25,070 nucleotides of DNA from Pigoraptor vietnamica (lineage: Eukaryota > Opisthokonta > Filasterea), in the NCBI GenBank assembly GCA_943704525.1, contig CALSCQ010000438.1, positions 1 to 25,070 of the forward strand. The letters run 5' to 3'. This document shows positions 51-22,202 of the stretch, piece by piece (within the stretch, counting starts at the first letter, position 1; each line of letters starts with the position of its first letter). A model generated the notes under the pieces. That model was not told the DNA's origin and did no database searches. It worked only from the letters and a program-made list of their open reading frames with translations. The position numbers were made by a program, and so were the translations under genes.

Positions 51-2393
51 TCATACCGTACAACACAAAAAAGCACGCACATATGCAACGGCTTCTTGCG
101 AATGGTCTGCGTCGGCGGCTTGCTCCTGCGCGTTCCAGCCCTCGCACAGCGCGTCGAGGCCCGACTTGAAATCCGCCTTGAGGTCCTGCAGCGACGCCGT
201 GCATCCATCGCGCGCGTGGACGATGGGCTCGAGGATAGCGTCCGCCCACATCGACGCAACGACGCTCCCGCTGCCGCTGCCGAGCGACGTGCTGCTTCCA
301 CTGCGCGTGTTCCTCGTCTGGTCCCCAAAGGACGCAAGCAGCGCCGACAACTCGGCAGCGACATCTTTAGTGGCGACGGCATCTTCCTCGGCGCCAAGGA
401 GCTGTCATGGCGCGACATGCAGTGAGACCCTTTTTTCACAGAGGCGTACGCTTTGCATGCCGTATGCGCAGTGTCTATTGTCGCATCCTCGCGTTTTTTT
501 TCACGTGTGCGCATTTGTGCAATACGTGGGTGAACGCACAGGAAGGCGAAGAAGGGACACAAACCTCGTTCAGTGTGCCGATCTTCTCGTCAGCCGCCCA
601 CTTTCGCGTCCCACGCAGCGCCATAAGCGCCTGCTGAGCGCGCAAATTCGAGTCGGCCGCGAGTGCCACCAGGGCATCGCGGTGCGCGGGCCCGTTCACC
701 TTGTCAAAGTGGCCGGCGAAGGACTCCTCCCACTCTGTGAATGAAGTAGAGTCAAGTTAGCGGCCTCGTGGACAAGCGTGGAGCTTACGGCAATCGTCAA
801 AGCATCGCTCACAAAGCACCTTTCGATCTTGCTTCCGTCGTCTCGCCCTCGGTGACGGTGGCTCCTCGCGTTTCGAGCGGGAGGTCAGACGCAACCACGT
901 CGAGCGCCTGTCACACGATACGAGCGAAGCGTGTGAACAACACCGGTGAGAGAGCGACAAGACATCAGCAAGCGAACAAGGGTGAGCTCTTGGTCGATAA
1001 AGAGCGCTGCATCGACGCATGAGGTGCTGACATCCCACCTTCTTCCCGAGTCCCTCGAGCGCATCGAGACCCTGCGCAATTAGGCGCTCGCCAAGCTCGT
1101 CAAACGACTGCTGTGCGACGTTCTCCTTGACCTTCAGGATGGCGGTGCCGAGGAGCCCTAGCGTGCACATTGGGTCGCAAGAGAGGCAACAGGGAATTTG
1201 GAGAAAAGGGAACGTAAGGTTATGGGGTGATGCAGGCCGCAAAAGCAAACGCATAGAATGGCAACGAAGGTGTAGCAGGTCATAAAGCATAGAAAAGCAA
1301 AATGAGTATTTGCGCGGAGAGGCGGGGCGTGGCCGCTAGACCCCTGTGGCACATAAAAGCGAGAGGCCAATCGCCTGCGACGCTGACGCACCAAGACCCT
1401 GATCAACGACGGAGAGAATGCCGCCCGATTGCTCAGCGTCGCCTTGCGTCGCAGTTGCGGAAGGGCCCTCCGGTTCGCGCGCCTGCACGCGTGGACGATT
1501 GTTTTTTTTTTTCTAAATAAAAAAAGAGAGAAACAACAAACAAAGAAAGAGAGAGAGAGGGAAGAGATGGAAGGAGCCGAACAGTTTTCCTTGACAACTA
1601 GCCACTGTGTGCCCACAGGACGCGACGACACACAACGTGATTGCACACTATTGCGCCGCCCACCTCGCCACCCTCTGCCGGGGCCTGCCCCTCTTCCTTC
1701 TCCGCGAGCACCTTCGGATTCGGCACGCCCAGCGATTCCTCCACAGACTCGATGTACTTGGTGATGTTCTCCGCTGCAAGTTACAGAGGGCCGGAGCAAC
1801 CCGGTTGGCGAAAGACAATCGACGAGGCAGACGCGGCAGGAGGAAAAGGCACACGAACTCAACTCACTCATGGCCGAGACAGTCGTGAGCGTGGACGCCG
1901 CCGTGGAGATAAGCGAGCCCCAGCCACCCCAGCCCCAGCCCGACTGCGCCGCCGCCGCCGCGTCCGCCTGTCGCTTGAACGACGCGGCTGGGTCGTCACG
2001 CTTCGGGGGCTCAGCGACACCTTCCTTGGGCTGTTCTTGGTCCGTGCCGCTCGATCGCGCACTCTGCGACTCCTCGTTGACGGGAACGGGCTCGCTCGTT
2101 CGCTTTGTTGGCTGCCCCTGCACGAGTCCATCTGCGGGGCCGCGCTTGTCCTTGGCGCGGGACCCTGAGGGTAGAGGGGGGGATTTGTCAACGACAACTA
2201 CTAAAGTAAGCAACCACCGACTGCATGACATGCGCGCGAAAGGTGGCAACGGACCTCCGTCGGCGTCGTCGAACTCCGTGGCACTCTCGTAGTCGCTTCC
2301 GGCATCGCTTCAAGGGGCACAACGGGGAGGTGAACGCTACGTTCTACACGCCACCTGCTACCACAAAGGCACACACCTTGCGTCGTCGCTCAT
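51..2393 (-). CDS. FAM114A-family (Noxp20-like) protein, nine exons
   Basis: Exons in order of translation: 2393-2377, 2307-2255, 2164-1868, 1773-1664, 1482-1392, 1157-1039, 907-820, 734-565, 401-51; all phases agree, giving 431 aa. An acidic N-terminus (MSDDASDAGSDYESATEF) is followed by a Pro/Glu/Lys-rich segment, then the family hallmark GWGWGGWG (residues 99-106) leading into a Ser/Thr/Ala helix. Next comes IESVEESLGVPNP (exon 4), which matches the IEKAETSLGIPGP-type motif I recall from vertebrate FAM114A2. GLDALEGLGKK (exon 6) and ALDVVASDLPLETR (exon 7) match the [26 protein letters not shown] region. HFDKVNGPAHRDALVALAADS (exon 8) matches the [20 protein letters not shown] region. Vertebrate members are linked to Golgi/vesicle membranes and neuronal differentiation; the role here is unknown. 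Uncertain points: exon 4 could instead end about 12 nt later at a GTGTGC donor. The C-terminus may continue left of the window, because TAT|GTGCGT near 84 is a good donor; otherwise the gene stops at TGA 53-51. The first intron has an AAG acceptor. Confidence 0.82.
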
Positions 2394-2910
2394 TTTTCTC
2401 GCGTCGCTGGCACGCCCTCGCCCTCCCTGTATGACTATGTCTTTCGTTCTCGCTGTGTCATAAGTTCAGTTTTGGCAAAGATGCGGAGAGATCAACGGCA
2501 AGCTACGTGGTTGCTCCACTTGAGGCGAATTCCACCCTGCGCATTGACCGCAATCTCGGCAGAAATATGTTACACTTATGTTACAACACAACTCTCAAAA
2601 CTTGCACAGCGTCAGTGTGTGTCCCCGTTTTGGCTGTGTTGCTGGTACCGGTGTCCCCGCATTGTCGCTTATGCCGCGTTCGGTCGCTCATGCACGGTCT
2701 GCTGCTTTGGACTGCTCCGTCCCTTGTCCGCCTGTGTCCTATCGACGGCATCGTTTTCGCGCACCTCCTTCACTTGTTTGTGACTGGTTTGGCCTGCAGG
2801 GACGCCGATGGACGCGGTGTGCTTATTATACACACTAATTATGCCATTACGTGAAAACGCCACGTCACACGGTCTCTGTCAATTGATTCCGTCGTGTTTG
2901 GGTTGTGTGT

Positions 2911-2911
<1 letters not shown>

Positions 2912-2974
<63 letters not shown>
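2912..2974. repeat. (GT)n dinucleotide microsatellite
   Basis: An uninterrupted GT run of about 31 copies, continued by imperfect GT/GC/GTGC sequence to about 3010. It lies inside the divergent promoter, roughly 190 nt before the plus-strand start codon region. Alternating purine-pyrimidine sequence of this kind can adopt Z-DNA (established knowledge); a regulatory role here is only inference. Confidence 0.95.
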
Positions 2975-2978
<4 letters not shown>

Positions 2979-3115
2979 TGTGTTGTGCGTGCGTGTGTGC
3001 GTGTGCGTGTGAAGAGAGGAGGGAGATTCCGGGCTGTGCATAGTGACCACGCTGCCTGCCAACACCTCTTGTGTCGACTGCTTTTTCTGCTCCCTTCGCA
3101 TCAAAGCGAAGGTAG

Positions 3116-3121
3116 TATAAA
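3116..3121 (+). promoter_or_regulatory. TATA box of the secreted propeller gene
   Basis: TATAAA lies 77 nt before the ATG at 3198. A TATA box normally directs initiation about 25-35 nt downstream, i.e. near 3145-3150. That would leave the in-frame ATG at 3153 almost at the cap and makes the ATG at 3198 the natural start, which also places a signal peptide at the very N-terminus. Confidence 0.5.
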
Positions 3122-3197
3122 GCGCCGACGGGGAAAAGCGTCTGAATGATCATTGTCGACTTCAATTGCCTCCAAAAAACTGCCTAACCCACCGACG

Positions 3198-4586
3198 ATG
3201 GCGGGTAGACTGCCTTCCCTCGTCGCTTCCGCCGCCGTTTTGGTGGCCCTTGCAGTCTTCGCGGCAGCAAACGGGTCCGGCGGCCATGCCGACCGCCGTC
3301 GCTGCGTCTCAACCGCCCGCTGCAAACTCTTTGAACACCGCATCGACTCGTTCGACGGGATCGTGCTCGCGCTCACTTTCATCGATGACAAGCCGGCGGT
3401 TGTGTTCGCGAATGGGCACAATCTCTACTTTGCAAGGGCCAAGGATGCGCGGGGTAGGCATTGGAACGTCCCGGACCTCATTGCCGCGAACGTCAATCCT
3501 CTCGTGGGGGGCGTCGCCATCGAAATTGTGCGGGATCGGCCCGTCGTCTCCTTCTTCAACGCCACCGAGGGCGCGCTCACTCCGCGCGAGCCCCCCGGCA
3601 TCAACACCTTGGAGCCCCTTCTCTTTGTGGCTGCGCGCGATCGCCTCGGCCGTTCGTGGCGCCGTCCGGTCATCGCATTCGACGGCGTGTTCAACTACCC
3701 AGACGCCGGCGACCGGCCCGGGCGCGGCTACCGCCTGAGCATGGCCATCGTGCACAAGAGGGTGGCGCTGTGCTTCTCCCTCGCCATCTTCAACATCACC
3801 GCGCGCGTGCCGAACCCCATCGTCACCGGGTGCGTGTACGGCCGCCTTGGACGGTACGGCGCCGATTTCCAGCCGTTTGAGGTCGTTTGGGGCCCGCAGG
3901 AATTGAACCTTTTCGTCGGCGACGTCGCGTCAAGCGTCGCGAACGTTCACTCGCGCTTTGGCGTGGCATATGCCACGGGCATCAAGGGGTCCGGCACGCT
4001 GGCGCCGACCGCATCGCTGCGCTACAGACTGACGAACAAGACTTCCAGCGACGTCGGGTCGCCCGGTACCTTCGAAGTGCTCGTCGACCACCACCCTGCG
4101 ATTCTTCGCGTGGAGCCTGGAGATACCGGCGCCTTCCCTTTCCTCACCCTCGTACGTGACAGGCCGGCGATATCGTACACTGAGCCCGCTTCTGACCCTC
4201 CCACTGCCAAGGTGGCTCTGTCAAAGGATTACTTCGGCCACGAGTGGACGAACCACACCGCTGTGGTGGACGTGTGGGTCAACGTGCCGACATCGCTTGC
4301 CGGCATCTGCGACCGCCCGTTCATCACGTTTGGACGCCAGCCGCCGACGTCGTTGTCGGGCGCTCCTCCCGCCGCCTACAGCCTGCTTGTGGCCGGAGCG
4401 AACGATTCTCACGGCAACCCAAATGGCACGTGGCACACGTTTCCCGTCGACGTGGCCATTTCAAACACGCCGATTGTGCCCCGCGCGTTCGGGGTTGCTG
4501 CTTTCGCCTACACTGCGTCGCCGACCGCGCTGCGCAGTGCATTTGCGGCATTTGTGGAGGTGGAGTGCGAGCGTCGTCACCACTGA
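3198..4586 (+). CDS. Secreted beta-propeller-like protein with Asp-box-like repeats, intronless
   Basis: A single open frame of 462 aa from ATG 3198; an in-frame ATG at 3153 would add 15 residues in front of the signal peptide. Residues 1-26 (MAGRLPSL, then a run rich in Ala, Val and Leu, ending AAANG) form a classic cleavable signal peptide. The mature protein has about six degenerate repeats: a strand such as DDKPAVVFANG, RDRPVVSFFN, RFGVAYATG, RDRPAISYTEP or CDRPFITFG, then a second strand such as LYFARAKD or LLFVAARD, then an Asp-box-like DxxGxxW turn (DARGRHW, DRLGRSW, DYFGHEW). This is the pattern of bacterial and eukaryotic repeats that fold as six- or seven-bladed propellers. N-glycosylation sequons are present (NAT, NIT, NKT, NHT, NDS, NGT). 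There is no TM segment, so it is probably extracellular or vesicular. I see no sialidase catalytic set, so I do not call an enzyme. Its lack of introns contrasts with every other gene here. Confidence 0.85.
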   Translation: MAGRLPSLVASAAVLVALAVFAAANGSGGHADRRRCVSTARCKLFEHRIDSFDGIVLALTFIDDKPAVVFANGHNLYFARAKDARGRHWNVPDLIAANVNPLVGGVAIEIVRDRPVVSFFNATEGALTPREPPGINTLEPLLFVAARDRLGRSWRRPVIAFDGVFNYPDAGDRPGRGYRLSMAIVHKRVALCFSLAIFNITARVPNPIVTGCVYGRLGRYGADFQPFEVVWGPQELNLFVGDVASSVANVHSRFGVAYATGIKGSGTLAPTASLRYRLTNKTSSDVGSPGTFEVLVDHHPAILRVEPGDTGAFPFLTLVRDRPAISYTEPASDPPTAKVALSKDYFGHEWTNHTAVVDVWVNVPTSLAGICDRPFITFGRQPPTSLSGAPPAAYSLLVAGANDSHGNPNGTWHTFPVDVAISNTPIVPRAFGVAAFAYTASPTALRSAFAAFVEVECERRHH

Positions 4587-4623
4587 GTAGCTGACGGAGC
4601 TGGTCGGTCTCAGTCGGTCGGTC

Positions 4624-4629
4624 AATAAA
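4624..4629 (+). terminator. Polyadenylation signal of the secreted propeller gene
   Basis: AATAAA lies 38 nt after the TGA of the propeller gene, in a short T/G-containing 3' region. Position and exact match to the canonical hexamer support it as the poly(A) signal. Confidence 0.65.
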
Positions 4630-5169
4630 ACCGACTTTCGTGAGGGGCATAGAGTGACCCAGATGCTGGAGAGCAGAATTTAACACACTCGGCACTCGCT
4701 CTGCTCTGCCAACAAACGACGCTGGCTCGTCACTCTCTCTCCGCTGCCGATTACACTGGCTCCGGCTCACCGATTTCAGTTTCACTTCATCTCGACCACA
4801 GTTTCAGGCGCCACCCCTGGCCATCCGCATAATATCGATTATCGATTGCGCGTCCACGGCCGCCGTCCATCAGGCATTGCGGCGGCGTCAGTCGCAGTTC
4901 ACTGACGAGATATCCGTCAATAAAACTCCCCTGGGTTTAGACCGGCCCACACTCAGTGTATGCCTAAGATGCGACTGTTCGGCGTCCGTGGGCACTGCGC
5001 ACCGATTGCACCTTTCCTGTCAACGTTGCGATTCAATCTGATTACGCCTCTCTTGTCTTGTCGCCGCCTTCGCTAAAGCAAGCAGGGCGTGGACACTTGC
5101 GTCCAGACAAAGACAGCTGATTGCTCACGTGAGTGGGTGTGTGGGTGGCCAAATTTGGGCAAAGCTTTA

Positions 5170-5179
5170 CCATATATGG
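5170..5179. promoter_or_regulatory. Perfect CArG box (candidate MADS-box/SRF site)
   Basis: CCATATATGG matches the consensus CC(A/T)6GG exactly and is fully palindromic, within GC-rich surroundings. It lies about 500 nt upstream of the start codon of the giant receptor gene. SRF-type MADS factors bind such sites in animals, fungi and amoebae (established knowledge). Use here is not shown. Confidence 0.4.
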
Positions 5180-5675
5180 AAAGAGCCTCGTGGGTCCCAA
5201 TGGCCGCCGCCCTCTCAATTCGAGAGGTCTATAGCAAACTGGACCTCGCGGTGGCAAGCTTATGAAAAATATAAGGAGGATCATGTGCTGCAGTAATTCA
5301 CGAAGTCTCGACTGTGTGGGTGTTCCTTAGAAATCAATTCCCAGGGGAGCGGCAGGCATAGTCAATCCTCATCGCCCAAACCTACTAATCACTACTCCTC
5401 CTCCTTTCCAGCGTGCTCTCGGGGCGTGTCTCGTGCGTGTGGGGCCTCTGCTTTATGCGTTGAAGGGCGCATCTAGGCAACTATTCTTTCTCTCTCTCGC
5501 CGACTTGACAGTACCGGCGTCAGTGGACATTCGCAACGTCGGCTGAGTCATTAGTTTTCGAGGGGGAATGGAAGGCGGACTCTCGGCTCACTAGTTTAAT
5601 TTTCGTGGATTTAGAGCGTGTTGTTGATTAGAAGCAACCCTAAGGGCAGGTCCCTAGGGGGCCGCCGCATCGCTC

Positions 5676-8600
5676 ATGGATAAGAAAGCGGCGGTCGAAC
5701 AGCAGGCTGCGCCGGTGGGTTGGGGGTGATGCGGGTGAGGCGACGATGAGTCGCTTTGCAGAAACGGGGATGACTCTGGGTTGGTCGCGGACAGGCCTAG
5801 ACACTATGTGGAGAGGGTTTGTTGGCGGCGATTGTCGTGGCAGACGCGCACCGCCCCGCGGCTGACCGATTTGCGGGTGGCCTACGGCTATTGGACGATC
5901 TCAGACAGTACCGCCCCTAATATTGTTCGTTGCCCTATTTTTGCAGGGGCCTCGCTTCGGATGGCGTGGCTGGAGCCTCACGACATTGGCCGTGTTCGGT
6001 CTTTTGTGTGCGGCGCTCTTTGCTGGTCACGAGGTGAATGCCGCGACTCTATTTTTGTTTACTCGGCCGGCGGGCATGATCGCGAGAGAGCGACGCATGG
6101 CTCACATGTTGGTGCTTCCCTCTGCAGCATTGGAAGCGCGCGCCCGCGCGGGCTCCTCTGGCGGACGACTACTTTGAGGATGACACCTCCGATCCATGTA
6201 AGAAATTGATATCATGTCGACTCGTGAATGCGTTCCGGTAGCCCATTGCTGTGAGTTATGTGACTGTCGGCGGTTCGACGTTTGACGTTGCCCTTTTGTC
6301 CGGCTCCAGTCTTTCGATCGGACACGTGCAGCAAGAACGGTCTCTGGACGGGAGAGAGCTGCGTGTGCAACCTCGGCTATCGGGGCGATACTTGCAGCGA
6401 GCGAGGTGCGTTGTCAAAGTCGTAACTTTAACCCTGCCAGTTGAGAAAACGTTTGTTTATACTCACTGGTGATGTCGGCGTCCGCGACAGTTGAGCTCTC
6501 TGCGCCGCCCGCGAAGAACGAGCGGGACACGATCTGCATGATTGTGGACGGTTTCGGTTTTCTCAACCCGAGCTCCGGTATCGCCACCGCCTATGCCTCG
6601 CTGGCCGAGGCCCTCGCGGCACAGGGCGCCAACGTGACGGTCGTGTACACGCCCGGCCTCGATTCGGGCGTGTTTGTCAACGCGCAGAAGTACTACCAGG
6701 ACCGCGGCGTCCATCTGCTCACGTGAGTGCCGGTCAACTACGAGAGGGAATAGCACTTGTCGAGTGTCAAAGTAGCACTGTGAAGCTGAATCGTTTTTTT
6801 GGTGCGCAGTCTGCCGGCAAGTGGCCTCGTGTTCAACGCGCCCAACAACGTGAGGCGATCGTACGAGGCGTACATGTGGCTGCGCGGCCAAAACTGCGAC
6901 ATTGTCCACTTCCACGCGCTGGGCGGCACCGGTTACTTCACTGTCCTCGCGAAGCACCAGGGAATCTTGCCGTACGCCCCTGTTATTGTTGTGGGCGCCC
7001 ACTCGATTGGTGCCACGATGATGAAGAACATTGACAAGGAGGCCGCGATCGACACGCCCGTGTTTGATCTCACGGACTTGAAGGAGGACTACATGCAGAG
7101 GATGTCGATGGAGCTCGCGGTGGGTTGGGGAGATTGTTGCCTGTTTTATCCCTCGTATCGGCCACTTAGATCTCAGCTCCTGTTTGTCGCCGCACTAGAT
7201 CTCGGCTCGTGTTGACGTGATTGAATCGACTGCAGGATCACGTCGTGAGCCCCAACAAGTGGCTCATCGAGTATCTGTCGCGCTTCCGGTGGTCGGTCAA
7301 GCCCTCGCGCCTCGAGGTCATTCCGAACATTGTGCCGTCGTACGTGCTCGAGCGTTCGACGGGCGCCGTCGCCGGCAAGAGCGTGAAGGCGAAGGAGATT
7401 GTTTTCTTTGGACGGCTCAGCGCGCTCAAGGGTCTGATTGTGTTTTGCAACGCCATTGACCTTGCCAAGCCGACGCTCGACCCCGACACGGTGATTACGT
7501 TCCTCGGTATGGACGTGCTCGTTCGCTTCCGCGCCAGCTCGGAGCTCATTCGGCGCCGCGCCGCGAACTGGCCCTTCCGCGTCAACATTATCACGGACAT
7601 GAACGGTCGCCAGGCGATGGCTTACCTCTCCGAGCCCGGCTCTGGCCGTGTCGCGATCATGCCGTCGCTTCTCGAAGTGTCGCCGTATGCGGTCGTCGAG
7701 TGCATGTACGCAGGCGTTCCGTTCCAGGCGAGCGACCTGCCAGGCACCGTGGAGCTCGTCAACGACGCGTCGCGCGACCTCGTGCTGTTCAAGGCAAACA
7801 ACAGCGCAGCGCTTGCCAACCGCATCGAGACGATTTTCGAAACGGGCGGTGAGTTCAGTACCAGCAGCTGAGGCGGACAAAATTGCGAGTGTTTAAACCG
7901 TTCGTATGGAGCTTCGTGGTTATTGATGCCTTTTGTTTTGTCTCCTTCCAGCGCCTCTTGCTGTGCCGCGGACGTCGGCGAACGAGATTGTGTGGAAGTG
8001 GCTCTCCTTCCACGGGCGGCTCGAGACGGAGCGGTCGCTGCAGATTGCCACGAAGGAGCGTCACGTCGACCCGGCGTCGGGCCCCCTCGTGACGGTTGTC
8101 CTTGTCCATTATAACCGCCAGACGCTCCTCAAGCAGGCGATCGAGTCGCTCGAGGCGCAGACGTACAAGAACTTTGAGATTGTCCTCGTGGACGACGGCT
8201 CGACGGATGCGCGCTCGCTCGCGTTCCTTCGTCAGCTGTCTGCCTCGTGGGAAAACCGCGGCTGGCGCGTACTCTTTGAGCCCAACCGCTACCTCGGTGC
8301 CGCCCGTAACACCGGCGGTGAGTTATGATCGCCGGTTGAAGCTGTTTCAATCTGTCTGCTCGATTTTGTTTGTTGATTTGCCGATGGCTCACAATGCATG
8401 CATGCGTGCTGCAGCTCGCAACGCGAAGGGAAAGTACGTTCTGTTCATGGACGACGACGACTACGCCAAGCCGCACCAGATTGAGACGTACGTCGACGTC
8501 GCCGAGCGCACGAACAGTGACGTCTTTACCTCTGGCCACGACCTCTTCGTTGGACTCGAGCCGCCGCCGGGCGAGGGCGGATACATTTTCCGCTACGTTC

Positions 8601-11600
8601 CGCTCGGACCTGCGCGCGACGTTGGTGTGCTGGAGAACTGCTTTGGTGACTCGAACATGTTCGTGCGCCGCGACTTTTTCCTCTCGTTCGGCGGCTTTAC
8701 GGAGGACTACGGTGTCGGTTTCGAGGACTACGAGTTCCTCGCCAAGGTCACGCTCGCCGGGCACAAGCTCGAGGCGCTGTCTGAGCCTCTCCACTGGTAC
8801 CGCAAGCACGGTCCCAGTATGAGCTCGCAAACGAACCTCCTCAAGAACCAGGCCCGCTACCTGCGCGCGTTTGAGAAGGAGTCGGACCTTGCCCACCTCG
8901 TGTCGCACATGCGCCGCTCGGTCGGATCCGGCTTTGTCGACGGCACCGGAAAGGGTAAGCGGAACGTGTATGCGTGTGGCTGCGTGTGTGTTTGGTAGAT
9001 GTTCGCGCACCCTAACGCGCGTGTCGCACGTACTGCAGTGTCGTGCCTCGAGAATACGAACTGCACCGTTGGCATTTGCCTCGGAGGAGTCTGCAACGGA
9101 CAGTGCCCGAACATGAACACGCCGCTGTCGGGCATTTGTAACGACGGTATGCGCGCGATCAACGGGACGTGCTTTTATCCCGTCGCGCCGATCGTGAACG
9201 GCACCTGCCCTCTCAACGTTACGTCGGTCGGCGACCTCTGCTTTGTCACCGGCGTGCCCTGCAAGACGAATGAGCAGTGCGGAGGGGACGCGACGGTCGC
9301 CTATTGCGACCATGGGTTCTGCCGCGACGCCAAGAACAACTGCACGAGTGAGTGTGCTTTGCAATTGAGGGCACTGTACAGAGATGACTCACAAACCACA
9401 TGTTCGAACACGCAGTTTGCGAGCAGGATTGTCGCGGTGTGTGCAATGGGCAAGCCGAGTACAACGCCGACGGGAAGTGCGTGCTGCCCACGCCCACGCC
9501 CACGCCCACGCCCACCCCAACTCCGACGCCGACGGCCGCGCCGACGACCGAGGCGCCGACCCCGACCACAGCGCCGGTTCCTGCGATCGATCAGGCGTAC
9601 TTTGATCCGCTACCGAACATCACGTACTTCATTGACGAAGGGTACATTTTCGCAAATTTCGACGATTTCCTCAAGGCCGACCCGCGCATCCGTGCCCGGC
9701 TGCAGGCGTCGATGCTCGTGCACAACCCGACCACGGACAAGTGGGACGCGCAGCCGATGCCATCTTGGCTCTCGTTCATCCGCGGTCGCCTCTCGATTTT
9801 TGGCGTCCCGACGCTCGCGGACAACGCGCTCGGCATGCACCTGTTTCAGATTACGGCGACGGACCAGTTTAAGCGCGTGTCGACGGGTCGTTTTACGGTG
9901 GAGATCCGCAGGCCCCAAGTGCAGCCGCCGGCGTTTTTCACGGTGAACCTCCGCCTCTTTGCGCGGTTTGAGTCGTTCTCGTCGCTGGACAAGGTCCAGG
10001 TCATCCAGGGACTCGGCAAGTTCATCGGAACGCCAGAGACGGACGTGTTGATCAAGAAGCTGTCAAAGGGTTCCACCATCGTCAACTTCACGCTCAAGTC
10101 GATCCAGACGATTGACGGCGCCAACGGGCTCGTCGGTGGGCTCGTGACCGGTCTTCAAAACGGCGCGCTCGTCTCGACGCTCGGCTACAAGGTCGCGTCG
10201 ATTACGGGCGACATCCCCAAGCCGCCGGTGACGTCGTCGTCGTCCACCGTGCAGACGTCTTCGCATCGGGCGACGTCCACCCCCGCGCGCACGTCGACCG
10301 CCGTTGCTCAGACGTCGACGCCTGCACGCACGTCGACGTTCGTGCCGCACACGTCATCGTTCGTTCCCACGTCATCGTTCGTTCCTACATCATCGTTCGT
10401 GCAGCCCACGTCATCGTTCGTTCCCGCGTCATCGTTCGTTCCCACGTCTACATTTGTGCCGCATACGTCGACGGTCGTCTTGCTCACGTCGTCCTTTGTG
10501 CCCGAAGTGACCTCTACGGCGGCCGCAGAGCCGACCTCGACGCCTGCACCCGAGTCGACGAGCGCCGCGCCGACCGGCGTTGTCAGCATTTCCCAGGCGG
10601 AAATCGACCCTATTGACGACGTGGACTATGTGCTGGACGAGGGCGCCATATTCATCGAGACGGACCCGAAGATTCGGGCAGATCCGCGCCTGCGACTCAA
10701 GTTCTGGTCTAACACGCTCGTCGGGGGCGCGCCGCAAGCACTGCCGACGTGGCTCGTGTTTGCGCGCGGTCGCTTGAGCTTCTTTGGTGTGCCCGCGCGC
10801 ACGGACCACGCCGTGGGCACGACAGTAGTGCAGATTAACTGCCGCGACCAGTTTGGTCGCATTACATCGCGGCAGTTTAACGTGCGCGTCTTCTCCGAGC
10901 CTCCGCCAAAGACAGACTTCACGATCAACCTCGCGCTCAACGCCAAGTTCGAGTCCTTCGGTGCTCTCGACAAGGTCAACGTGCTTGGCGGCCTCGGCGC
11001 GTTCCTCGCGATGGACAGCAAGACGATTCGCTTTACGAGTGTGACGAAGGGTTCGACTATTATTGGGTTGACGCTCAAGGGCGCCGATGCCACGGCCGGT
11101 CAGGGCGTCTTCACGTCGCTCAAGTCCGGACTTGACAGCGGGTCTCTCGTGTCGACGATAGGCTACAAGGTCAAGGGGCTCGAATTCACGGTGCCTGTCG
11201 TGTCGTCGTCCTCGAGCGCCACACCGACGCCGTCCACGACGAATGTGCCATCCGCAACGTCGACGTTTATTCCGACATCGACTGCTGTGCCGGCGACGTC
11301 GTCGTTCGTTCCGACGTCCACATTTGTTGCTCCGACGTCGTCGTTCGTGCCCGAGGCAACGTCCACCGCTGCGCAGGCGACATCGACCTTTGTGCCAGCC
11401 GCCACATCAACTGTTGCTGCCACGGCCACTACGGGCGCCGCGGAGGCAACAGCAACGACGGGTGCTGCGGAGGCTACCGCCACGACGGGTGCTGCGGAGG
11501 CTACCGCCACGACGGGTGCTGCGGAGGCCACCGCCACGACGGGCGCTGCGGAGGCCACCGCCACGACGGGCGCTGCGGAGGCCACCGCCACGACGGGCGC

Positions 11601-14600
11601 TGCGGAGGCCACCGCCACGACGGGCGCTGCGGAGGCGACAGCGACGACGGGCGCTGCAGAGGCGACAGCGACGACGGGCGCTGCAGAGGCGACAGCGACG
11701 ACGGGCGCTGCAGAGGCGACAGCGACGACGGGCGCTGCAGAGGCGACAGCGACGACGGGTGCTGCGACGCCCACGACGGGCGCTGCAGAGGCGACGCCCA
11801 CGACGGGTGCTGCGACAGCGACGACGGGCGCTGCGGAGGCGACGCCCACGACAGGTGCGGCTACGGCCACGACGGGTGCCGCGCCTGAGACCTCCTCGTT
11901 TGTGCCCGCGGCGACGTCGACAAGCACGCCGGAACCCACTGGCGTCGTATCCATTCCGCCGATGACGTGGTCTCCAATTGACAACATTGATTACGTGCTG
12001 GACGACGGCGTGATATACACGCGCGTGGAGGATAATGTGAACGCCGACCCTCGGCTCCGTCTCAAGTTCTGGGCGACCAAGGTCGTCGGCGACACGGTGC
12101 TCCCCCGCCCATCGTGGCTCGTGTTTGCCCGCGGCCGCCTCAGCTTCTTCGGCGTGCCCTCGCGCAGTGACAATGCCGTGGGGACGACGGTGGTGCAGGT
12201 CAGCTCGCGGGATCAGTTTGGACGCGTCGCGTCGACGCGGTTCAACGTGCGCGTCTTCTCTGAGCCGCCGCCCAAGACGGACTTTGCGATCAAGATCACG
12301 CTTAACGCGAAGTTCGAGTCGTTCGGCGGTCTCGACAAGTTCAACGTGCTGGGAGGGCTGGGCGTCTTCCTCGGCATCGACGCGCGCACGCTGCGCTTCA
12401 ACAATGTCACGAAGGGCTCGACCATTCTCGATACGACGGTGAAGGGCGCAAGCGCGGATGCCGGCAAGGGCCTATTTACGCAGCTCAAGAGCGGCCTCGA
12501 CAATGGCGACCTCGTCAAGACTGTCGGCTACAAGGTCAAGGGACTCGAATTTGCCGTCCCCGTCGTCTCTTCGTCGTCTTCGTTAGTGACGCCCACGCCT
12601 TCGCCCACGTCGACGATCGTGCCTAGCGTCTTTTCGTCGCCCGCCGTGTCGTCATTCACGCCCGTGTCGGTGTTCACGACATCGTCGTTTACGCCCGAAG
12701 CCTCGTCATTTACGCCCGTCTCGGTTTTCACGCCATCGTCGTTTACGCCGGCAGCTTCGTCGTTTACGCCTGCAGCTTCGTCGTTTACGCCTGCAGCTTC
12801 GTCGTTCACGCCGGCTGCGTCGTCGTTTACTCCGGCAGCGTCGTCGTTCACGCCCCAGCCATCGTCTACGGCGATTCCCACGGCTACGACGAGTCACACG
12901 GCGACCACTGGGAAGCCGCCCACGGCGACGACGGGCCACACGGCGACCACGGGACGTACAGCCACGACGGGCCACACGGTGACCACTGGGAAGCCCACGG
13001 CGACCACTGGGAAGCCCACGGCGACCACTGGGAAGCCCACGGCGACCACTGGGAAGCCCACGGCGACCACTGGGAAGCCCACAGCGACCACTGGGAAGCC
13101 CACGGCGACGACGCGCCACACGGCGACCACTGGGAAGCCCACGGCGACGACGGGCCACACGGCGACCACGGGACGTACAGCCACGACGGGCCACACGGCG
13201 ACCACTGGGAAGCCCACGCCGACGACGGGCCACACGGCGACCACTGGGAAGCCCACGGCGACGACGCGCCACACGGCGACCACTGGGAAGCCCACGGCCA
13301 CGACGGGACATACGGCGACCACCGGGCCAACGCCGACAACGGGACATACGGCCACGACGGGACACACGGCGACCACTGGGAAGCCCACGGCGACGACGGG
13401 CCACACGGCGACCACTGGGAAGCCGCCCACGGCAACCACCGGGCCAACGCCGACAACGGGACATACGGCCACGACGGGACACACGGCGACCACCGGGCCA
13501 ACGCCGACAACGGGCCACACGGCGACCACGGGACGTACAGCCACGACGGGCCACACGGCGACCACTGGGAAACCCACGGCGACCACTGGGAAGCCCACGG
13601 CGACCACTGGGAAACCCACGGCGACCACTGGGAAGCCCACGGCGACCACTGGGAAGCCCACAGCGACCACTGGGAAACCCACGGCGACGACGGGACACAC
13701 GGCGACCACTGGGAAGCCGCATACGGCCACGACCGGGAAGGCGACGTCGACGAAGCACGCAACGCCCACGCCCACGCCGACATCCACAGCGCACTCATCG
13801 TTTACGCCATCGCCGCCCAAGACTTCTCACTTCACTCCGGTCGTATCCCCGACTCCGACGCCGAAGCCGACACACGCGTCTGTCACGCCCACGGGTACTG
13901 CAACGACCGGCGCCCCGAGCACGTCGACGGCCGCGCCGATACCGATCACGATTCCGCAGGCGATCATCGATCCCATCGCGGACATTGTGCACGTGCTCGG
14001 CCAAGGCTACATATACTCGGACGTGGACGACCACGTGCATGCCGACGACAGGTTGCGCCTCCGGTTCCGTGCGGGTCAGATTAAGATTATCGACGGCGCG
14101 CCTGTTTTGCGGCCGCTTCCGTCGTGGCTCGTTTTCGTTCGCGGTCGGCTGACATTCTTCGGAGTGCCCGCGCCGAAGGACAACTCGACCGGCGTGACGA
14201 CGGTGGCGATGGAGTGCAAGGATCAATTTGGCCGCGTCACGCAACGCACCTTCCGCGTGACCGTCAAGACGGGCGTCGATGTGACGCCCGAATTCAGCAT
14301 TGACCTGACGCTGTTTGCCAAGTTTGAGAACTTTGGCGGATTGGACAAGGTGGCCATCATGTCTGGCCTCGGGCGCTTCCTCGGTCTGGGCAGCTCGTTC
14401 CCGCGCTTCCTGGGCGTGTCGAAGGGTTCGACCAAGATCGACTTTACCGTCGACGGCGCGTCTTCGTCGGACGGGTCGGCGCTGTTTGACTCCATGAAGA
14501 GCGGTCTTTCGTCCGGCGCCCTCGTGAAGGATCTCGGTTACAAGGTAAAGGGCCTGACGGTCGAATTGCCTGTCGTCTCGTCAACCTCGAGCGCCACGCC

Positions 14601-16561
14601 GACGCCAACGCCGACGAGCACGTTTGTGGAGACGACGAGCATCGCCTCGACAAGCACGCCGGAGGTCTCGGTGTTCACGACGCCGTCGTCGTTCACGGCG
14701 ACTCCCACAACGGGCACTCCGACGCCGACAACCGGCACCCCGACACCGACAACTGGCACCCCGACACCCTCGACCGGTACCCCGACCACTGGCGCGACCG
14801 CCACGACGGGCACACCGGAGGCGACGTCGTCGAATGTTGAGGAAGCGCCTTCGTCCTTCACCGCGACACCAACGACAGGCACGCCGACCCCGACGACGGG
14901 CGAGACTGGAACCCCCACGACGGGCACTCCAACACCGACGACGGGTACACCTACGCCTTCGACTGGTACGCCGACCACTGGCAAGACTGGCACACCGACG
15001 ACCGGCACGCCGACGCCGACGCCGACACCGTCCACGGGCACGCCGACGCCCTCAACAGGCACACCGACAACAGGCCCACCGACACCATCGACGGGCGCTC
15101 CGCCTTCGACGGGCGCGCCTGCTGCACCTACGACGCACGCCTCGAGCAGCTCGAGCCGCACGCCGTCACCGTCGCATTCACCGTCCATCACGCCCGTGCC
15201 GCCCATTACCGCGTCCAGCAAGTCTAACCTCGGCGTCATTCTGCCGGCCGTCCTCGTACCGACGGTCTCGCTCATTCTCATTGCGGCCGCCGTGTTCTTC
15301 TACAGGAAGTGGGTGTTTGCTGCGTGTTACATTTGTCGCCTCTCGTGTCCTTGTGCGCTTCCAGTTTCTAACTCACCCCACCCATTTTTACACTTGCAGG
15401 AGGGCGCGCCGCGGAGCATACTTCCCGTCGGACAAGGAGGGCGAGATGATGCGTCAAGACGACGAGTTCAGCGCCGTCGTGCCCGTCTCGACGTCGCCGG
15501 TCGCCGCGAAGAAGCCGTCGCGCCCCGCCGACGCTCCGCCGTACGTGGCGCCGCCCGGCTACCCCGGCAAGGGACAGACAGACGCCAAGTCGACCGCACC
15601 CCCGTACCGGCCGCCTCCGGACTATCCCACCGCCCCGGCACCCGGCACGGACGTACCTGCGTACAGGCCCCCGCCGGACTACGACAATGCGCTCGCGCTT
15701 GCGATGGCTGGACAGGCCGCGCCAGATGGGTCCGTGCCGGCCTACCGCATGCCACCCGACTACGCCGGCGCACTCGCCCTCGCGGCCGCGCAACAGCCCG
15801 CCGCCGACGGTTCTATTCCGGCCTACCGACAGCCGCCGGACTATGCGGGCGCGCTCGCTCTCAGCGCCGCGCACCAACAAGCGGCCGACGGTTCGATTCC
15901 GGCCTACCGCCAGCCACCGGATTATGCGGGCGCGCTGGCCCTCAGCGCGGCGCACGCCGCGCCGCAGCCGGGCGTCATTCCGGCCTATCGCATGCCGCCC
16001 GATTATGCCGGCGCGATTGCGCTCGGCGCACGCGCGCCGGGCACTGCGGCTGCCGCGCCTGCAGTGGTCGAACCGGCATCGGTGCTCCCGACGTACAGGA
16101 TACCGCCCGAGTACGCGACACTCGCCACGGCCGCTCCGCCTGTGGAGGCGCCGGTTGAGTCTGTTGCGCCGGTGCAGGCTGCTGCCGAAGCCGCGTCGTC
16201 ATCGTTGCCCGCCTACAAGCCCGTGCCCACATATCGTGAGCGTCCTCCTTCTGTGGTGCCTGTGGCGCCGCCGCTCCCGCCCGTCGAGCCCCTCGTGCCG
16301 GTACCCGCCCCTGCTCCGGAGCCGTTTGTGGCGCCCGAGCTCGCGTCGCCGGCCATTGTGCCCGTCCTCGCGCCGATGGTTGTTGCGCCGCCGCCTGCGA
16401 CGCCGGTGCGGCCAGAGGCACCGCCGAAGCAATTCGGAGTTGTGCCGCAGTACGCGCGGCCGCCGACCTACGACGAGGTGCGGAGCTTGCAAGCGCGGCG
16501 CCTGGGGTCCATGCCAGGACCGTCGGGCAGCCCTCCAGGACCGTCGTCGGGGCCGCAGTAG
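5676..16561 (+). CDS. GT4-GT2 glycosyltransferase fused to a dystroglycan-like (CADG/SEA-like, mucin, PPxY) transmembrane receptor
   Basis: Exons: 5676-5714, 5947-6033, 6128-6197, 6310-6405, 6491-6722, 6810-7119, 7236-7848, 7952-8317, 8415-8954, 9039-9347, 9416-15308, 15400-16561. All junction phases agree and no internal stop appears; product 3,238 aa. Order: cytosolic residues 1-25; hydrophobic signal anchor about 26-41; EGF-like unit about 70-97 (CSKNGLWTGESCVCNLGYRGDTC); GT4 about 105-480; GT2 about 505-770; Cys-rich segment about 785-905; TP-rich spacer; four CADG + SEA-like modules (about 944-1159, 1276-1484, 1730-1939, 2396-2607) separated by mucin-like Thr/Pro linkers; TM helix about 2823-2848 followed by basic KRARR; cytosolic tail 2853-3238 with nine PPxY motifs. 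The lumenal or extracellular part would be about 2,780 residues. It could act at the cell surface or in the Golgi. The start ATG is chosen because its short exon splices in phase to the signal anchor; this first exon is the least certain part. Confidence 0.82.
6491..7848 (+). other. GT4 (GT-B fold) glycosyltransferase domain within the giant gene
   Basis: Exons 5-7 encode a full GT4-type enzyme. The N-terminal Rossmann half opens with ICMIVDGFGF and a Gly-containing loop (SSGIATAYASLAEALAAQG), followed by CDIVHFHALGG. The linker carries DHVVSPNKWLIEYL, a form of the VSPSxY motif common in bacterial-type GT4 enzymes. The C-terminal half has IVFFGRLSALKGL and the nucleotide-sugar-binding EX7E motif: E425 and E433 in LLEVSPYAVVECMYAGVPFQAS. 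Both glutamates are present, so the domain looks catalytically competent. Donor and acceptor sugars cannot be read from sequence. Its closest relatives probably are bacterial-type GT4 domains, which should be tested by phylogeny. Confidence 0.85.
7952..8954 (+). other. GT2 (GT-A fold) glycosyltransferase domain within the giant gene
   Basis: Exons 8-9 encode a canonical GT2 catalytic domain. VTVVLVHYNRQTLLKQAIES is the first strand and helix. VLVDDGSTD (Asp-Asp near residues 563-564) binds the nucleotide. KYVLFMDDDDYAKP provides the metal-binding DxD cluster at 617-620. GFTEDYGVGFEDYEF carries the ED catalytic-base pair (E708, D709), followed by the ALSEPLHWYRKH segment typical of the C-terminal lid. 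All key residues are intact. It follows the GT4 domain with no linker longer than about 25 residues, so the two probably act in tandem on one glycan. Confidence 0.88.
9039..9480 (+). other. Cys-rich EGF/disintegrin-like connector within the giant gene
   Basis: Exon 10 and the start of exon 11 encode about 120 residues with some two dozen cysteines in short loops (CLENTNC, CLGGVCNGQC, CKTNEQCGG, CDHGFC, CEQDCRGVCNG) and several NxT/NxS sequons (NCT, NGT, NVT). Spacing resembles EGF/Dickkopf-like disulfide-knotted modules rather than one textbook family. It joins the glycosyltransferase half to the receptor half; splicing is in phase on both sides (8954|9039 phase 1, 9347|9416 phase 1). Confidence 0.7.
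9585..10230 (+). other. CADG + SEA-like module 1
   Basis: Residues about 944-1159. The CADG part runs from FDPLPNITYFIDEG through LPSWLSFIRGRLSIFGVP and ends in a DQF...FTVEI strand, the signature of the dystroglycan-type cadherin-like fold. The following about 100 residues (FFTVNLRLFARFESF, KGSTIVNFTLKS, GYKVASITGDIP) form an alpha/beta unit with K1105-G1106-S1107 before a hydrophobic strand, the place of the G|S autoproteolysis site in SEA domains. It is the most divergent of the four in its N-terminal half. Confidence 0.7.
10237..10570 (+). repeat. Coding repeat, SSFVPT-type Ser/Thr/Pro linker 1
   Basis: Linker between modules 1 and 2, built from short repeats of the type TSSFVPTSSFVPASSFVP at the protein level, encoded by 18-21-nt units. 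Ser, Thr and Pro dominate and would support dense O-glycosylation. Confidence 0.85.
10582..11205 (+). other. CADG + SEA-like module 2
   Basis: Residues about 1276-1484: IDPIDDVDYVLDEG, LPTWLVFARGRLSFFGVP and DQFGRITSRQFNVRVF mark the CADG domain. FTINLALNAKFESFGALDK, KGSTIIGLTLKG (G1433-S1434) and GYKVKGLEFTVPVV mark the SEA-like domain. It is closest to module 3 (shared FNVRVFSEPPPKTDF junction). Confidence 0.75.
11437..11900 (+). repeat. 27-nt coding minisatellite (TTGAAEATA) in mucin-like linker 2
   Basis: About twelve head-to-tail 27-nt units encode TTGAAEATA, then variant TTGAATP/TTGAATA units. Synonymous differences fall in blocks (first GCTACC, then GCCACC, then GCGACA), showing expansion by stepwise duplication. 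Thr-rich and probably O-glycosylated. Confidence 0.95.
11944..12572 (+). other. CADG + SEA-like module 3
   Basis: Residues about 1730-1939: SPIDNIDYVLDDG, PSWLVFARGRLSFFGVP and DQFGRVASTRFNVRVF for CADG; FAIKITLNAKFESFGGLDK, KGSTILDTTVKG (G1888-S1889) and GYKVKGLEFAVPVV for the SEA-like part. Near-identity to module 2 over the RGRLSFFGVP and FNVRVFSEPPPKTDF stretches indicates a recent duplication. Confidence 0.75.
12640..12860 (+). repeat. Coding repeat, SSFTPAA-type units at the start of linker 3
   Basis: Linker 3 begins with 21-nt units encoding ASSFTPA (about six in a row near 12740-12860) after SVFTPSSFTP variants. It resembles the SSFVPT units of linker 1, suggesting the ancestral linker was of this type before the later TTG expansions. 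Confidence 0.85.
12894..13745 (+). repeat. 21-nt coding minisatellite (TTGKPTA/TTGHTA) in mucin-like linker 3
   Basis: About 850 nt of 18-24-nt units encoding TTGKPTA, TTGHTA, TTGRTA and TTGPTPT in mixed order, with longer blocks of several units themselves duplicated. All unit lengths are multiples of three, so the frame is kept, and several other frames, including on the minus strand, also stay open as a by-product. Lys/His/Arg inside the Thr-Thr-Gly units give this linker a positive charge unlike linkers 2 and 4. Confidence 0.95.
13940..14577 (+). other. CADG + SEA-like module 4 (membrane-proximal)
   Basis: Residues about 2396-2607: IDPIADIVHVLGQG, LPSWLVFVRGRLTFFGVP and DQFGRVTQRTFRVTV for CADG; FSIDLTLFAKFENFGGLDK, KGSTKIDFTVDG (G2558-S2559) and GYKVKGLTVELPVV for the SEA-like part. 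The position, next to a mucin stalk and the TM helix, is like the single module of animal dystroglycan. Confidence 0.75.
14690..15130 (+). repeat. Coding repeat, TPTTG/TPSTG units in linker 4 (juxtamembrane stalk)
   Basis: Short repeats encoding TGTPTPTTGTPTPSTG and variants fill the stalk between module 4 and the TM helix, followed by a Ser-rich ASSSSSRTPSPSHSPS segment. High Thr/Pro content is typical of mucin stalks. Confidence 0.9.
15400..16561 (+). other. Cytosolic tail with nine PPxY motifs (final exon of the giant gene)
   Basis: The last exon starts right after the TM helix with a basic stop-transfer KRARR and encodes a 386-residue, Pro/Ala/Tyr-rich tail. PPxY motifs read in order: PPGY, PPDY (six times), PPEY, PPTY. 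Most sit in a repeat PAYRxPPDYAGALAL spaced by about 30 residues. PPxY is the class I WW-domain ligand; animal dystroglycan binds dystrophin through a C-terminal PPPY. A juxtamembrane acidic/basic patch (SDKEGEMMRQDDEF) precedes the repeats. Confidence 0.85.
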
Positions 16562-17146: not shown

Positions 17147-19044
<1,898 letters not shown>

Positions 19045-19260: not shown

Positions 19261-22202
19261 TCACTTTGACTTCTTGCGCAACTTCTCAAACTTGTCCTGG
19301 AGATGGTGGATGACCTCGTTCGCGCCCATTTCCACGACCTGCGGCGTCGTGCAATATCCCGTTGAGCTCACACCACGTCCACCATGACACACGACATCGC
19401 CTTCACACGCTTCGAGGCATCTCTGCCCTACCTTGGACGGAATGCCCTTGAGCGGATTGTCGTCGATGTTGAGGAGCTTGAGGCGCGTGCACAGGCAAAT
19501 GTCGAGCGGAATGTCGTTGATTTGGTTGTCGTTCATGTAGAAAGTCCCCAGCGAGATGAGGCCGCCTGTTACGACAGCCGCAGGGCTTGAGTACGGCACA
19601 CACACAGCACGGACCCATGCAACACAATGAAGGGACCCCTAAACCAACTGCCCCCAACAAAGGACAGCGCCGTCTGCACGCACCGAATCCCGTCGGAAGC
19701 GCCGTGATCTTGTTCTCAGCGATCGACAGCGTCTTGAGCGCGATGAGCTGTCCGAACGTTTCCGGCAGCGCCGTGAGCTCGTTCGACTGCACCATCAGCG
19801 ACGAGAGCGTGCGGAGGCGTCCAAACTCCCTCGGTAGCTCGGTGAGTTTGTTGCCCTCGAGGTCGAGCGTCTTAAGGCGGCTGAGTTGAACAAAGTCGTC
19901 GGGAAGCTTCACCAGCTGGTTGTTCGATAGGACGAGCGTCTCGAGCTCGTACAGCCGGCCAATGGTGTCTGCGGCACGAACATGTGCGTAGCCGTGTGCT
20001 TGTGTGAGTAAGAGAGAAGAAGCGACCGTGTGTGTAGGAATGTGTGCAACAGTGCACATGATAAGGGCCCGTCGGTTCCAACAACGAGCAGTCAGTCAGC
20101 ACCCACCCGGCAGTGACTCGAGCTTGTTCGTTCCAAGGTTGAGCTCCTTGAGCATCTTTAGCGCGGCAATGTCCGACGGGATGGTCTTGAGGTTGTTGTT
20201 GCTGAGATCGACGCGCACGACGCGCGCAATCGACGGAAAGACGCCGTCACGGATTTCCGATAGCAAGTTGTGCGACATGACAAAAACCTGCGACGACGAA
20301 AGGGGCCTCAGTGACGCTGCTGCGCGTGCGCTCATGTGTGCAACTCTGACTTGGGAGGATGATCCAGACGCTGCGTGCGCACGTGCGTGCGTGCGGGCGC
20401 GCCTAAATGCGCCCATTTTCTTACCTGGACCTGCCTCAGGGCACCGAGACTCTGCGGGACACTGTCAAACTGATTGCGTCCGAGGGCGACCGTCGTCATC
20501 GCGGTGAGGTTGTCGCACATGCCATCAGGGACCGTCTTGAGCTCGTTGCCTTCGAGCGCAAGCTCTTCTAGCTTCGTGCACTTGCCGAGACTCAGCGGCA
20601 GCGACGAGAGCTTGTTGTACCTGCGCAACATGGGATTGTCTCGGCATGAGAACGACGAGCATATGTCGAAGCACGTTACATGCGTGCGCACACACTAGCA
20701 TATGCCCAGGCACATTACGTGCAGTACACGATCCCAAGTCGACATACATGTCGTGATGCACACACCTCAAACTCAATCGCGCCAATCCCGCGATGTTGCC
20801 GATGTTCTCGGGGAGGGATTTGAGCTCGTTGTGTTGGACGTTCAGAGTGACGAGACTGGTGCAGTTGCATATTTCTGTCAAGGCGGAAAGGCCAACACGC
20901 CACATGTCAGCGACTCCCATTTCTCTCGTTTTGCTCTCGTCGCGCAGTGCCGAGACGTAGAGGCGGCCTCACGCCCACTCACCGTCGGGCAACTCCTGCA
21001 GTGCGTTCTGTTGTAGGTCGAGAATGTTGAGCGCGCCGAGTTTTCCAATGTTGCCGTGCACCTTGTCGATGCGGTTGTCGCGGAGGCTCAAGAGCGTGAG
21101 ATTCTGCGGAAAGGAGAGAGAAGGCGAATACGGAATGAATGGAAGAGTCGGTGCCTATTACACGGGAATAAATTGTGCGGTTCGCCACAGCCAGCGCGAA
21201 GGGGGGCATCAAGTCAAAATTTGAAAAACACACAACAAAGGCCAAAGGGACCCAAGCGCCGATCAAGAGCCGATCGGACCGAAGCGGCGTTAGAGAGCCG
21301 CACAGCACGAGAAGTGCATACCGTGAGCGACTCGATTTCCATCGGCACGCTGAAGAGGCGGTTGAATCGGAGGTACAGCTTCGTGAGCGTCGTCAGCATG
21401 TATATCACGCCGGGAATGTCCTGGAGCCTGTTGTGGCGCAGGTCGAGCACCTGCAGCTGCTTCAGCGCCGACATTTCCTCGGGAAGCCACGTGATCTGCG
21501 CGCGCGACGAAAGCATGGATGTCAGATTGGCAACCCAGCCCTCCACAAAAAGGACGCGCACGCAGACAACGAGCGCTATCTCCCGACCACGCGATATCAT
21601 AACATGCAAAACGCGCTCAAGACCGACAAGGCGCTTCCTTTCCACCCTCTCACCTGGTTCTCGCTCAGGCCCAGGATCTTCAGGTTCACGAGGCCCTTGA
21701 TCTCGGGCGGAACCGTCGTCAACTTGTTCGAGTAGAGGTACAGCTCCGTCAGCCACGGCGCCTCAAAGACGAAGAGCGGTACCGTCGTCGTGTCGATGCC
21801 GTTCAGGTCCAAGAACGTCGCCTGCGCCTCGCTACACTTTTTGAATCGGTCGGCGATTGTCGCAATAATGTTCGGATCGACCGTGTTCTCCGACTGGCGC
21901 CGCGGCGACTCGCTGCGCTTGTTGTCACCGCGTATTGACACCTTGCGCGCGATGCCGCTCGTGGCGTCCGAGATCTTTCTCCCGCCGTCCCGGAACTGCA
22001 TCGAGACCTTCTTTCGCATCCCACCCGGCGGCGTGGACGCGGCGAAGGTCATCGACGACGACTGGGACAGCGAGGGGGAGGGCGGCGCATTCTGGGAATA
22101 CACTTGAGAGAGAATCGACCCGGAGGTCGGTGACGGCGACGGCGACGGAAGCTCAGAGACGTCCTGGACGCTCGCGGAATCGCTCACAGAGCTATCGTCC
22201 AT
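19261..22202 (-). CDS. Leucine-rich repeat protein with 20 SHOC2-type repeats, nine exons
   Basis: Exons in order of translation: 22202-21654, 21495-21322, 21103-20983, 20874-20766, 20620-20425, 20287-20107, 19968-19684, 19565-19432, 19338-19261; phases agree, 608 aa. Residues 1-126 are Ser/Pro-rich and probably disordered, with two basophilic kinase-like sites (MRKKVSM, ARKVSIR). From residue 127, twenty 23-residue repeats of the form xLxxLxLxxNxLxxLPxxIgxLx follow in unbroken register; they remain in register across all eight introns, which independently confirms the splice model. The Pro at the LP position and the repeat length put it with the SHOC2/PIRL/Dictyostelium LrrA group of intracellular Ras-linked LRR proteins. 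The final segment (VVEMGANEVIHHLQDKFEKLRKK) caps the solenoid with a helix. No signal peptide, TM or kinase domain is seen. It is convergent with the threonine dehydrogenase gene, 216 nt apart. The exact partner is unknown. Confidence 0.9.

Follow-up and report, generated by a model that had tools for sequence, protein, structure and literature searches.

Animal dystroglycan crosses the membrane once and carries a PPxY motif in its tail, and defects in the enzymes that glycosylate it lead to muscular dystrophies. LARGE combines a GT8 and a GT49 domain and is, like the exostosins, a Golgi bi-domain enzyme whose two transferases share a chain and lie close to a membrane segment. Some SEA domains are able to cleave themselves. 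According to one account, LARGE acts on dystroglycan, which binds laminin with high affinity only once separate enzymes, LARGE included, have glycosylated it; the protein is cut between Gly653 and Ser654 by an enzyme there called unknown, its NU region holds two conserved cysteines, and repetition of its module is known, six-fold in Nematostella (PMC4582122). The same account reports that no dystroglycan or dystroglycan-like protein was found in two choanoflagellates and Capsaspora (PMC4582122), and a further source lists dystroglycan as arising with animals (PMC8061703). The exostosins are described as GT47+GT64 enzymes (PMC9178029). As a precedent, glycosyltransferases that play a part in the clumping and the rosette development of a protist are reported with jumble and couscous of S. 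rosetta (PMC6322860).

The window analyzed here is a stretch of 25,070 nucleotides from a genome of 32.5 Mb in 1,395 contigs, which is also the source of the contigs C922, C59, C493, C497 and C1090 discussed below. Its central gene can be read, as the preliminary description of this DNA had proposed, as twelve exons with consistent phases (Table 1); all eleven introns are GT-AG and 68-232 bp long. The predicted protein consists, in this order, of a hydrophobic segment, an EGF-like domain, a GT4 and a GT2 glycosyltransferase domain, a Cys-rich exon, four cadherin-like plus SEA modules, a transmembrane helix and a tail. The N-terminal hydrophobic segment, the EGF-like domain and the Cys-rich exon 10 come in addition to the parts recognized earlier. 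The gene model is least certain at its beginning, in exon 1, the start codon and the join of exon 1 to the hydrophobic segment. Upstream, a single-exon frame on the plus strand (3198-4586), signal-like at its start by eye and with no Pfam match at E<=0.1, is a probable secreted protein. On the other side lie NAD-dependent epimerase frames on the plus strand (about 17150-19044; Epimerase 9.2e-12 at 17494-18339) and leucine-rich-repeat frames on the minus strand (19403-22235; LRR_8 2.5e-22), each set probably belonging to one intron-containing gene.

Table 1. Features of the fusion gene (window positions) and of two further module-bearing loci of the same genome (contig positions).
Feature	Position	Strand	Remarks
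Whole coding region, 12 exons	5676..16561	+	3,238 aa; GT-AG introns, consistent phases, single terminal stop
Exons 1-6	5676-5714, 5947-6033, 6128-6197, 6310-6405, 6491-6722, 6810-7119	+	Spliced frame
Exons 7-12	7236-7848, 7952-8317, 8415-8954, 9039-9347, 9416-15308, 15400-16561	+	Spliced frame
N-terminal hydrophobic segment, aa 22-40 (signal anchor or signal peptide)	5971..6027	+	Hydropathy 1.82, second highest
EGF-like domain, exon 4	6310..6405	+	EGF_Teneurin E 3e-4, 21.2 bits vs cut-off 24.3; phase 1-1
Enzyme cassette, exons 5-9	6491..8954	+	2,061 nt; begins and ends in phase 1
GT4 glycosyltransferase domain	6529..7848	+	Pfam; E-x7-E at aa 425/433
GT2 glycosyltransferase domain	8002..8923	+	Pfam; DDG 563, DDDD 617, ED in FED 707
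Intron 9, enzyme/receptor junction	8955..9038	+	Read-through reaches TAG 8996-8998, then ATG 8999
Cys-rich exon 10	9039..9347	+	Phase 1-1; 5 of the protein's 11 N-glycosylation sequons
Module 1, cadherin-like + SEA-like	9592..10224 (SEA 9928-10224)	+	
Gly-Ser of KGST, SEA 1	10069..10074	+	G1106; between strands 2 and 3 (SEA model)
S/T-rich linker 1	10225..10593	+	123 aa, 46% S+T
Module 2, cadherin-like + SEA-like	10594..11205 (SEA 10909-11205)	+	Modelled, Foldseek
S/T-rich linker 2	11206..11964	+	253 aa, 39% S+T
Module 3, cadherin-like + SEA-like	11965..12570 (SEA 12274-12570)	+	
S/T-rich linker 3	12571..13956	+	462 aa, 46% S+T
Module 4, cadherin-like + SEA-like	13957..14580 (SEA 14284-14580)	+	SEA modelled, SEA-only search
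Gly-Ser of KGST, SEA 2-4	11050, 12415, 14425	+	G1433, G1888, G2558
S/T-rich juxtamembrane linker	14581..15228	+	216 aa, 52% S+T
Transmembrane helix, aa 2829-2847	15238..15294	+	Hydropathy 2.53, highest in protein; basic stretch after
Cytoplasmic tail	15400..16561	+	Nine PPxY motifs
C922 (L031), GT-free receptor	2446-7557	-	Single frame; two modules, Receptor-L, long S/T-rich linkers, TM, PPxY tail
C59 (L032), adhesion GPCR-like	2068-6004		Module ahead of HRM 1.1e-6, GPS 1.6e-9, 7tm_2 1.1e-18 (Pfam)

The intact GT4 and GT2 domains claimed in the preliminary description were recovered. The profile search that it had called for gave Glycos_transf_2 (2.3e-29), Glyco_transf_4 (4.8e-14) and Glycos_transf_1 (6.2e-13), all above the curated Pfam cut-offs, and the E-x7-E glutamates and the DDG, DDDD and ED motifs, to which we ascribe catalytic roles, are retained in the two predicted domains. 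LARGE had been mentioned there as one of the enzymes that glycosylate dystroglycan. Pfam identifies GT4 plus GT2 and found neither GT8 nor GT49 in residues 1-914; given also the colinearity with bacterial GT4-GT2 enzymes, a LARGE-like identity of the pair was rejected. Judged by its sequence, the pair is a bacterial-type GT4-GT2 bifunctional enzyme. A query of 650 residues spanning both domains matched 866 plasmid records, 24 of them covering at least 80% of the query in one place; the best 12 of the 866, bacterial plasmid glycosyltransferases, reached 95-99% coverage at about 36% identity. The search of genome_contigs yielded at least 594 stretches fitting the pattern and at least 329 encoding a relative of the pair, from which 77 loci were kept, and the best relative among the matches listed, from the Myxococcota, is 41% identical over residues 2-647 of 650. 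Two annotated relatives, from Azospirillum and Klebsiella, are single genes named only glycosyltransferase; the former is adjoined by galE and glycosyltransferases and the latter by a polysaccharide pyruvyl transferase family gene. Among the NCBIfam matches listed for the enzyme (best 25 of 29) none reached its cut-off.

For a tree of 36 rows, 34 of the 77 loci were picked by hand and two were dropped for stops, leaving 32 bacterial rows. Over most of its 650 residues the window pair is colinear with all of these, at 29-41% identity, and it scores 233-469 bits against them, as compared to 330, 139 and 131 bits against the enzymes of C493, C497 and C1090 from its own genome. In this tree, which warns of long branches, the window pair groups among bacteria, as does C493, neither of them at a settled place; C497 and C1090 stand apart, and no starred set holds the window pair. 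Acquisition by transfer from bacteria is likely on these sequences, with a tree that spans only bacteria and the genome itself. A viral source was considered and is not supported: in viral contigs, neither the two pattern matches to the GT pair (the pattern catches close relatives only) nor the 87 matches to the module, from a weak search with few conserved stretches, were confirmed. None of the 75 phage records matching the pair covers 80% of it, and a DNA search of phages with exon 9 gave no match. The equally weak module pattern had 47 matches in genome_contigs, none of them confirmed. No second copy of the fusion was found in searches of its own genome, of bacterial/prokaryotic and of viral contigs.

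The receptor half had been described as CADG/SEA-like repeats. Modules 1, 3 and 4 are 42-68% identical to module 2, taken as the reference. The Pfam model He_PIG (putative Ig domain) matches all four, only below its cut-off (E 1e-4 to 0.054), and neither SEA nor DAG1 models matched any of them at E<=1 with HMMER filters that lose weak matches. A profile built from the four modules matched the adhesin SraP (E 9.3e-5) with its cadherin half only. Structure prediction, likewise proposed earlier, was carried out on module 2 and on the SEA stretch of module 4. Module 2, modelled without templates (mean pLDDT 70.4, pTM 0.50), had dystroglycan or dystrophin-complex entries as its 11 best PDB matches in Foldseek (E 1.5e-10 to 7.8e-6). 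Five of these are N-terminal structures of alpha-dystroglycan, two are chains of the proteolytic domain of dystroglycan, and four are dystrophin-complex chains whose identity is not stated. The TM-scores by query were low (0.34-0.39), which probably reflects uncertainty in the angle between the two domains. CELSR1 (8vy2, 1.7e-5), SraP (4m02, 5.7e-5) and Ig or cadherin entries came next; cadherin-23 (8tri, 1.2e-4) and protocadherin-15 (6bxz, 1.1e-3) match as well. In the SEA-only model (pLDDT 77.5, pTM 0.70) the elements run strand-helix-strand-strand-helix-helix-strand. IA-2 entries, the related phosphatase 4hti and the dystrophin-complex chain 8yt8_O (TM 0.70) fill the top seven rows of its search, followed by unrelated ferredoxin-like folds, and nothing in this search reached E<=0.001 (best 1.2e-3). 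IA-2 is named a SEA or SEA-like protein in one source (PMC6586460).

For the claim of CADG/SEA-like repeats, the predicted fold, with its modest model quality and low TM-scores, makes up in part for the lack of SEA or DAG1 profile matches. The Ig/cadherin-like then SEA-like order of dystroglycan is present in the predicted fold, low pair TM-scores included, and for the cadherin half also in the sequence. It is this fold that carries the interpretation of the modules as dystroglycan-like, with dystroglycan as the supported best match of the prediction. The receptor part is not an established member of that family, because none of its four SEA stretches contains a cysteine and there is no Pfam DAG1 match. 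A search with EF-hand_3 (dystrophin) was silent in this genome and equally silent in all 14 controls.

A KGST sequence places Gly-Ser between strands 2 and 3 of the SEA domain in each of the four modules; it is kept in the second module of C922 and in C59 and is absent from the first C922 module. By analogy with dystroglycan, these Gly-Ser pairs might be putative cleavage sites that split the enzyme from the membrane half, and cleavage there would call for a revision of the view that enzyme and substrate form one stable unit. The mucin linkers, transmembrane helix and PPxY tail noted before were all borne out, with 39-52% S+T in linkers totalling 1,054 residues, a hydropathy of 2.53 over 19 residues and nine PPxY motifs. 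Tandem repeats of the TTGAAEA- and TTGKPTA-type are visible by eye in the linkers (11430-11890 and 12880-13740) and may vary in length among strains. The third and fourth hydropathy peaks lie in the Pro-rich tail (1.66) and inside GT4 (1.57), so that the N-terminal segment at 1.82 is not far above the third. This segment may or may not be cleaved, that is, it may be a signal peptide or a signal anchor. With a basic stretch after the C-terminal helix, the region between the two hydrophobic segments is predicted to be luminal or outside, with the PPxY tail inside.

Each half of the fusion also exists alone in the genome. By our searches, cadherin-like plus SEA modules occur at three places: besides the four of the window there are two in C922 and one in C59. 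C922 is a candidate free dystroglycan-like receptor: its N-terminus is signal-like, a_DG1_N2 matches below its cut-off (E 0.024), and its tail aligns with that of the window, both tails being of low complexity and aligned with no filter. The two overlapping frames of C59 are assumed to be one gene. C493, C497 and C1090 encode GT4 and GT2 together, with no modules in the stretches read, and C161, cut at the contig start, shows the same arrangement by eye. The genome holds many other glycosyltransferases. Among them, GT49 (PF13896), which we take to be the LARGE/B4GAT1 family, has 34 six-frame matches at E<=0.001 outside the fusion gene; these were counted exon by exon and hence represent fewer genes, and the family looks expanded. 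There are 33 six-frame matches to WW domains. Four of these domains stand in one frame of C1220 (28621-29361), an arrangement known from Nedd4-type ligases, and make a possible partner of the PPxY tails. The integrin beta family is also present.

Our preferred reading is one membrane protein: a bacterial-type GT4-GT2 enzyme, built into the ectodomain of a dystroglycan-type receptor, would modify the linkers of its own chain or those of neighbors. To this reading as a whole we give an even chance. Computation yielded the open frame, the domain identities, the predicted module fold, the motifs and the separate halves in the genome; the overall architecture is well supported, and from it we infer the glycosylating action. 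The N-terminal hydrophobic segment would take the protein into the secretory pathway, with enzyme and modules in the lumen, where the two transferases could build a short or alternating glycan on S/T-rich linkers, either those of their own chain or those of receptors travelling with it. Once at the surface, the stalk with its glycans would bind outside ligands and the PPxY tail WW proteins. With less assurance, at least one SEA domain might be cut at Gly-Ser, perhaps by itself, leaving the enzyme half non-covalently held or shed. We consider self- or neighbor-glycosylation of linkers in the secretory pathway and subsequent adhesion the most likely course; SEA cleavage may serve to separate the parts. 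A more far-reaching history is conceivable but doubtful: a bacterial surface-polysaccharide enzyme would have been captured and, in the form of an exon cassette, added to a dystroglycan-type receptor, turning it into an adhesion receptor that writes its own sugar code, the SEA cut at Gly-Ser would leave halves that stay non-covalently joined or part on a signal, and the module, if the host is not an animal, would be older than animals or shared across that border.

The unity of the gene turns on intron 9. Were it two adjacent genes, a Golgi GT4-GT2 enzyme would end at the TAG at 8996-8998 and the receptor would start at or near ATG 8999, which follows directly and is in frame with exon 10. A weak intron 9 donor (rank only 7 of 28 GT) and the presence of stand-alone GT4-GT2 genes and a stand-alone receptor in the genome are in keeping with such a split. 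However, the second protein, starting MFAHPNARVARTAVSCLE, is by eye without a signal sequence and yet must cross the membrane, whereas the free receptor C922 starts signal-like; the genes would have zero spacing; exons 9 and 10, on either side of the junction, have the same GC3 (0.83 and 0.82); and the acceptor ranks first of eight nearby AG. The matrix behind these ranks is small, made from the other ten introns of the same gene, and by the same matrix introns 3, 4 and 10 have one weak splice side each. Moreover, 22 in-frame, stop-free splices exist at intron 9, and the top two, from donor 8976 (first) and from donor 8955 of the preliminary description (second), both to acceptor 9038, both fuse enzyme and receptor. 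We regard two genes as very improbable. One gene with alternative transcripts is also improbable: retention of intron 9, which soon reaches a stop, would give the Golgi enzyme, skipping of exons 5-9 would give the receptor, and the fusion would be minor or absent. The cassette can be removed in frame because both its ends are in phase 1, and phase 1-1 is also seen in exon 4 (EGF) and exon 10 (Cys-rich); but with 6 of the 11 introns in phase 1 such a match is common here and counts as suggestive only.

For the enzyme's target, a rather unlikely alternative is that it acts on other substrates, such as secreted glycoproteins or a matrix polysaccharide, with the receptor as anchor, stalk or localization signal and the linkers decorated by other enzymes. 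The other sugar genes beside the Azospirillum and Klebsiella relatives and the many further glycosyltransferases of the genome are compatible with this, but the tethered 1,054-residue linker sequence would be the nearest substrate, which is an argument of geometry. Similarly, the modules could possibly be of a general cadherin-like plus SEA kind, as in protocadherin-15, cadherin-23, CELSR or the sarcoglycans, which hold cadherin-like domains, with no special tie to dystroglycan, although we think this rather unlikely. CELSR1, SraP, cadherin-23 and protocadherin-15 match the module model too, the cadherin half matches SraP by sequence, IA-2 tops the SEA-only list and four of the 11 top entries are the dystrophin-complex chains of unstated identity. 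Against this, the five alpha-dystroglycan N-terminal entries and two proteolytic-domain chains outrank every other named protein, and the Gly-Ser position agrees with the dystroglycan site.

Taken as a single membrane protein, the fusion brings together halves that are each of a known kind, and the join appears to be new; no description of this enzyme-receptor layout was found in the open-licence PMC literature, mostly judged by listings. A natural fusion of this kind would be a ready system for asking if tethering an enzyme to a receptor determines the glycan that the receptor carries, with the free receptor and free enzymes of the same genome as built-in controls. A dystroglycan-type module with Gly-Ser in a non-animal would, if the identity of the host is confirmed, point to an origin earlier than the base of the animals, or else to a crossing of that border.

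C922 and C59 share the cadherin-like plus SEA module with the fusion protein, and C922 also its mucin-like stretches, transmembrane helix and PPxY tail; unlike the fusion, both are without glycosyltransferases, and C922 has Receptor-L whereas C59 has HRM, GPS and 7TM. Bacterial GT4-GT2 enzymes of surface-sugar loci are colinear two-domain enzymes alike, to which the fusion protein adds a membrane segment, an EGF-like domain, a receptor ectodomain and a tail. LARGE and the exostosins resemble it in having two transferases per chain, in principle able to build an alternating glycan, but belong to other GT families and have no receptor on the same chain. With dystroglycan (DAG1) the fusion has in common the Ig/cadherin-like plus SEA-like order, an S/T-rich mucin region, Gly-Ser at the place where the SEA domain of dystroglycan is cut and, in the receptor part, a single transmembrane helix with a PPxY tail. 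It differs in SEA stretches without cysteine, in having no DAG1 Pfam match at E<=1, in four modules all separated by mucin and in nine PPxY motifs, and it adds a second, N-terminal hydrophobic segment, an EGF-like domain, a Cys-rich domain and two glycosyltransferases.
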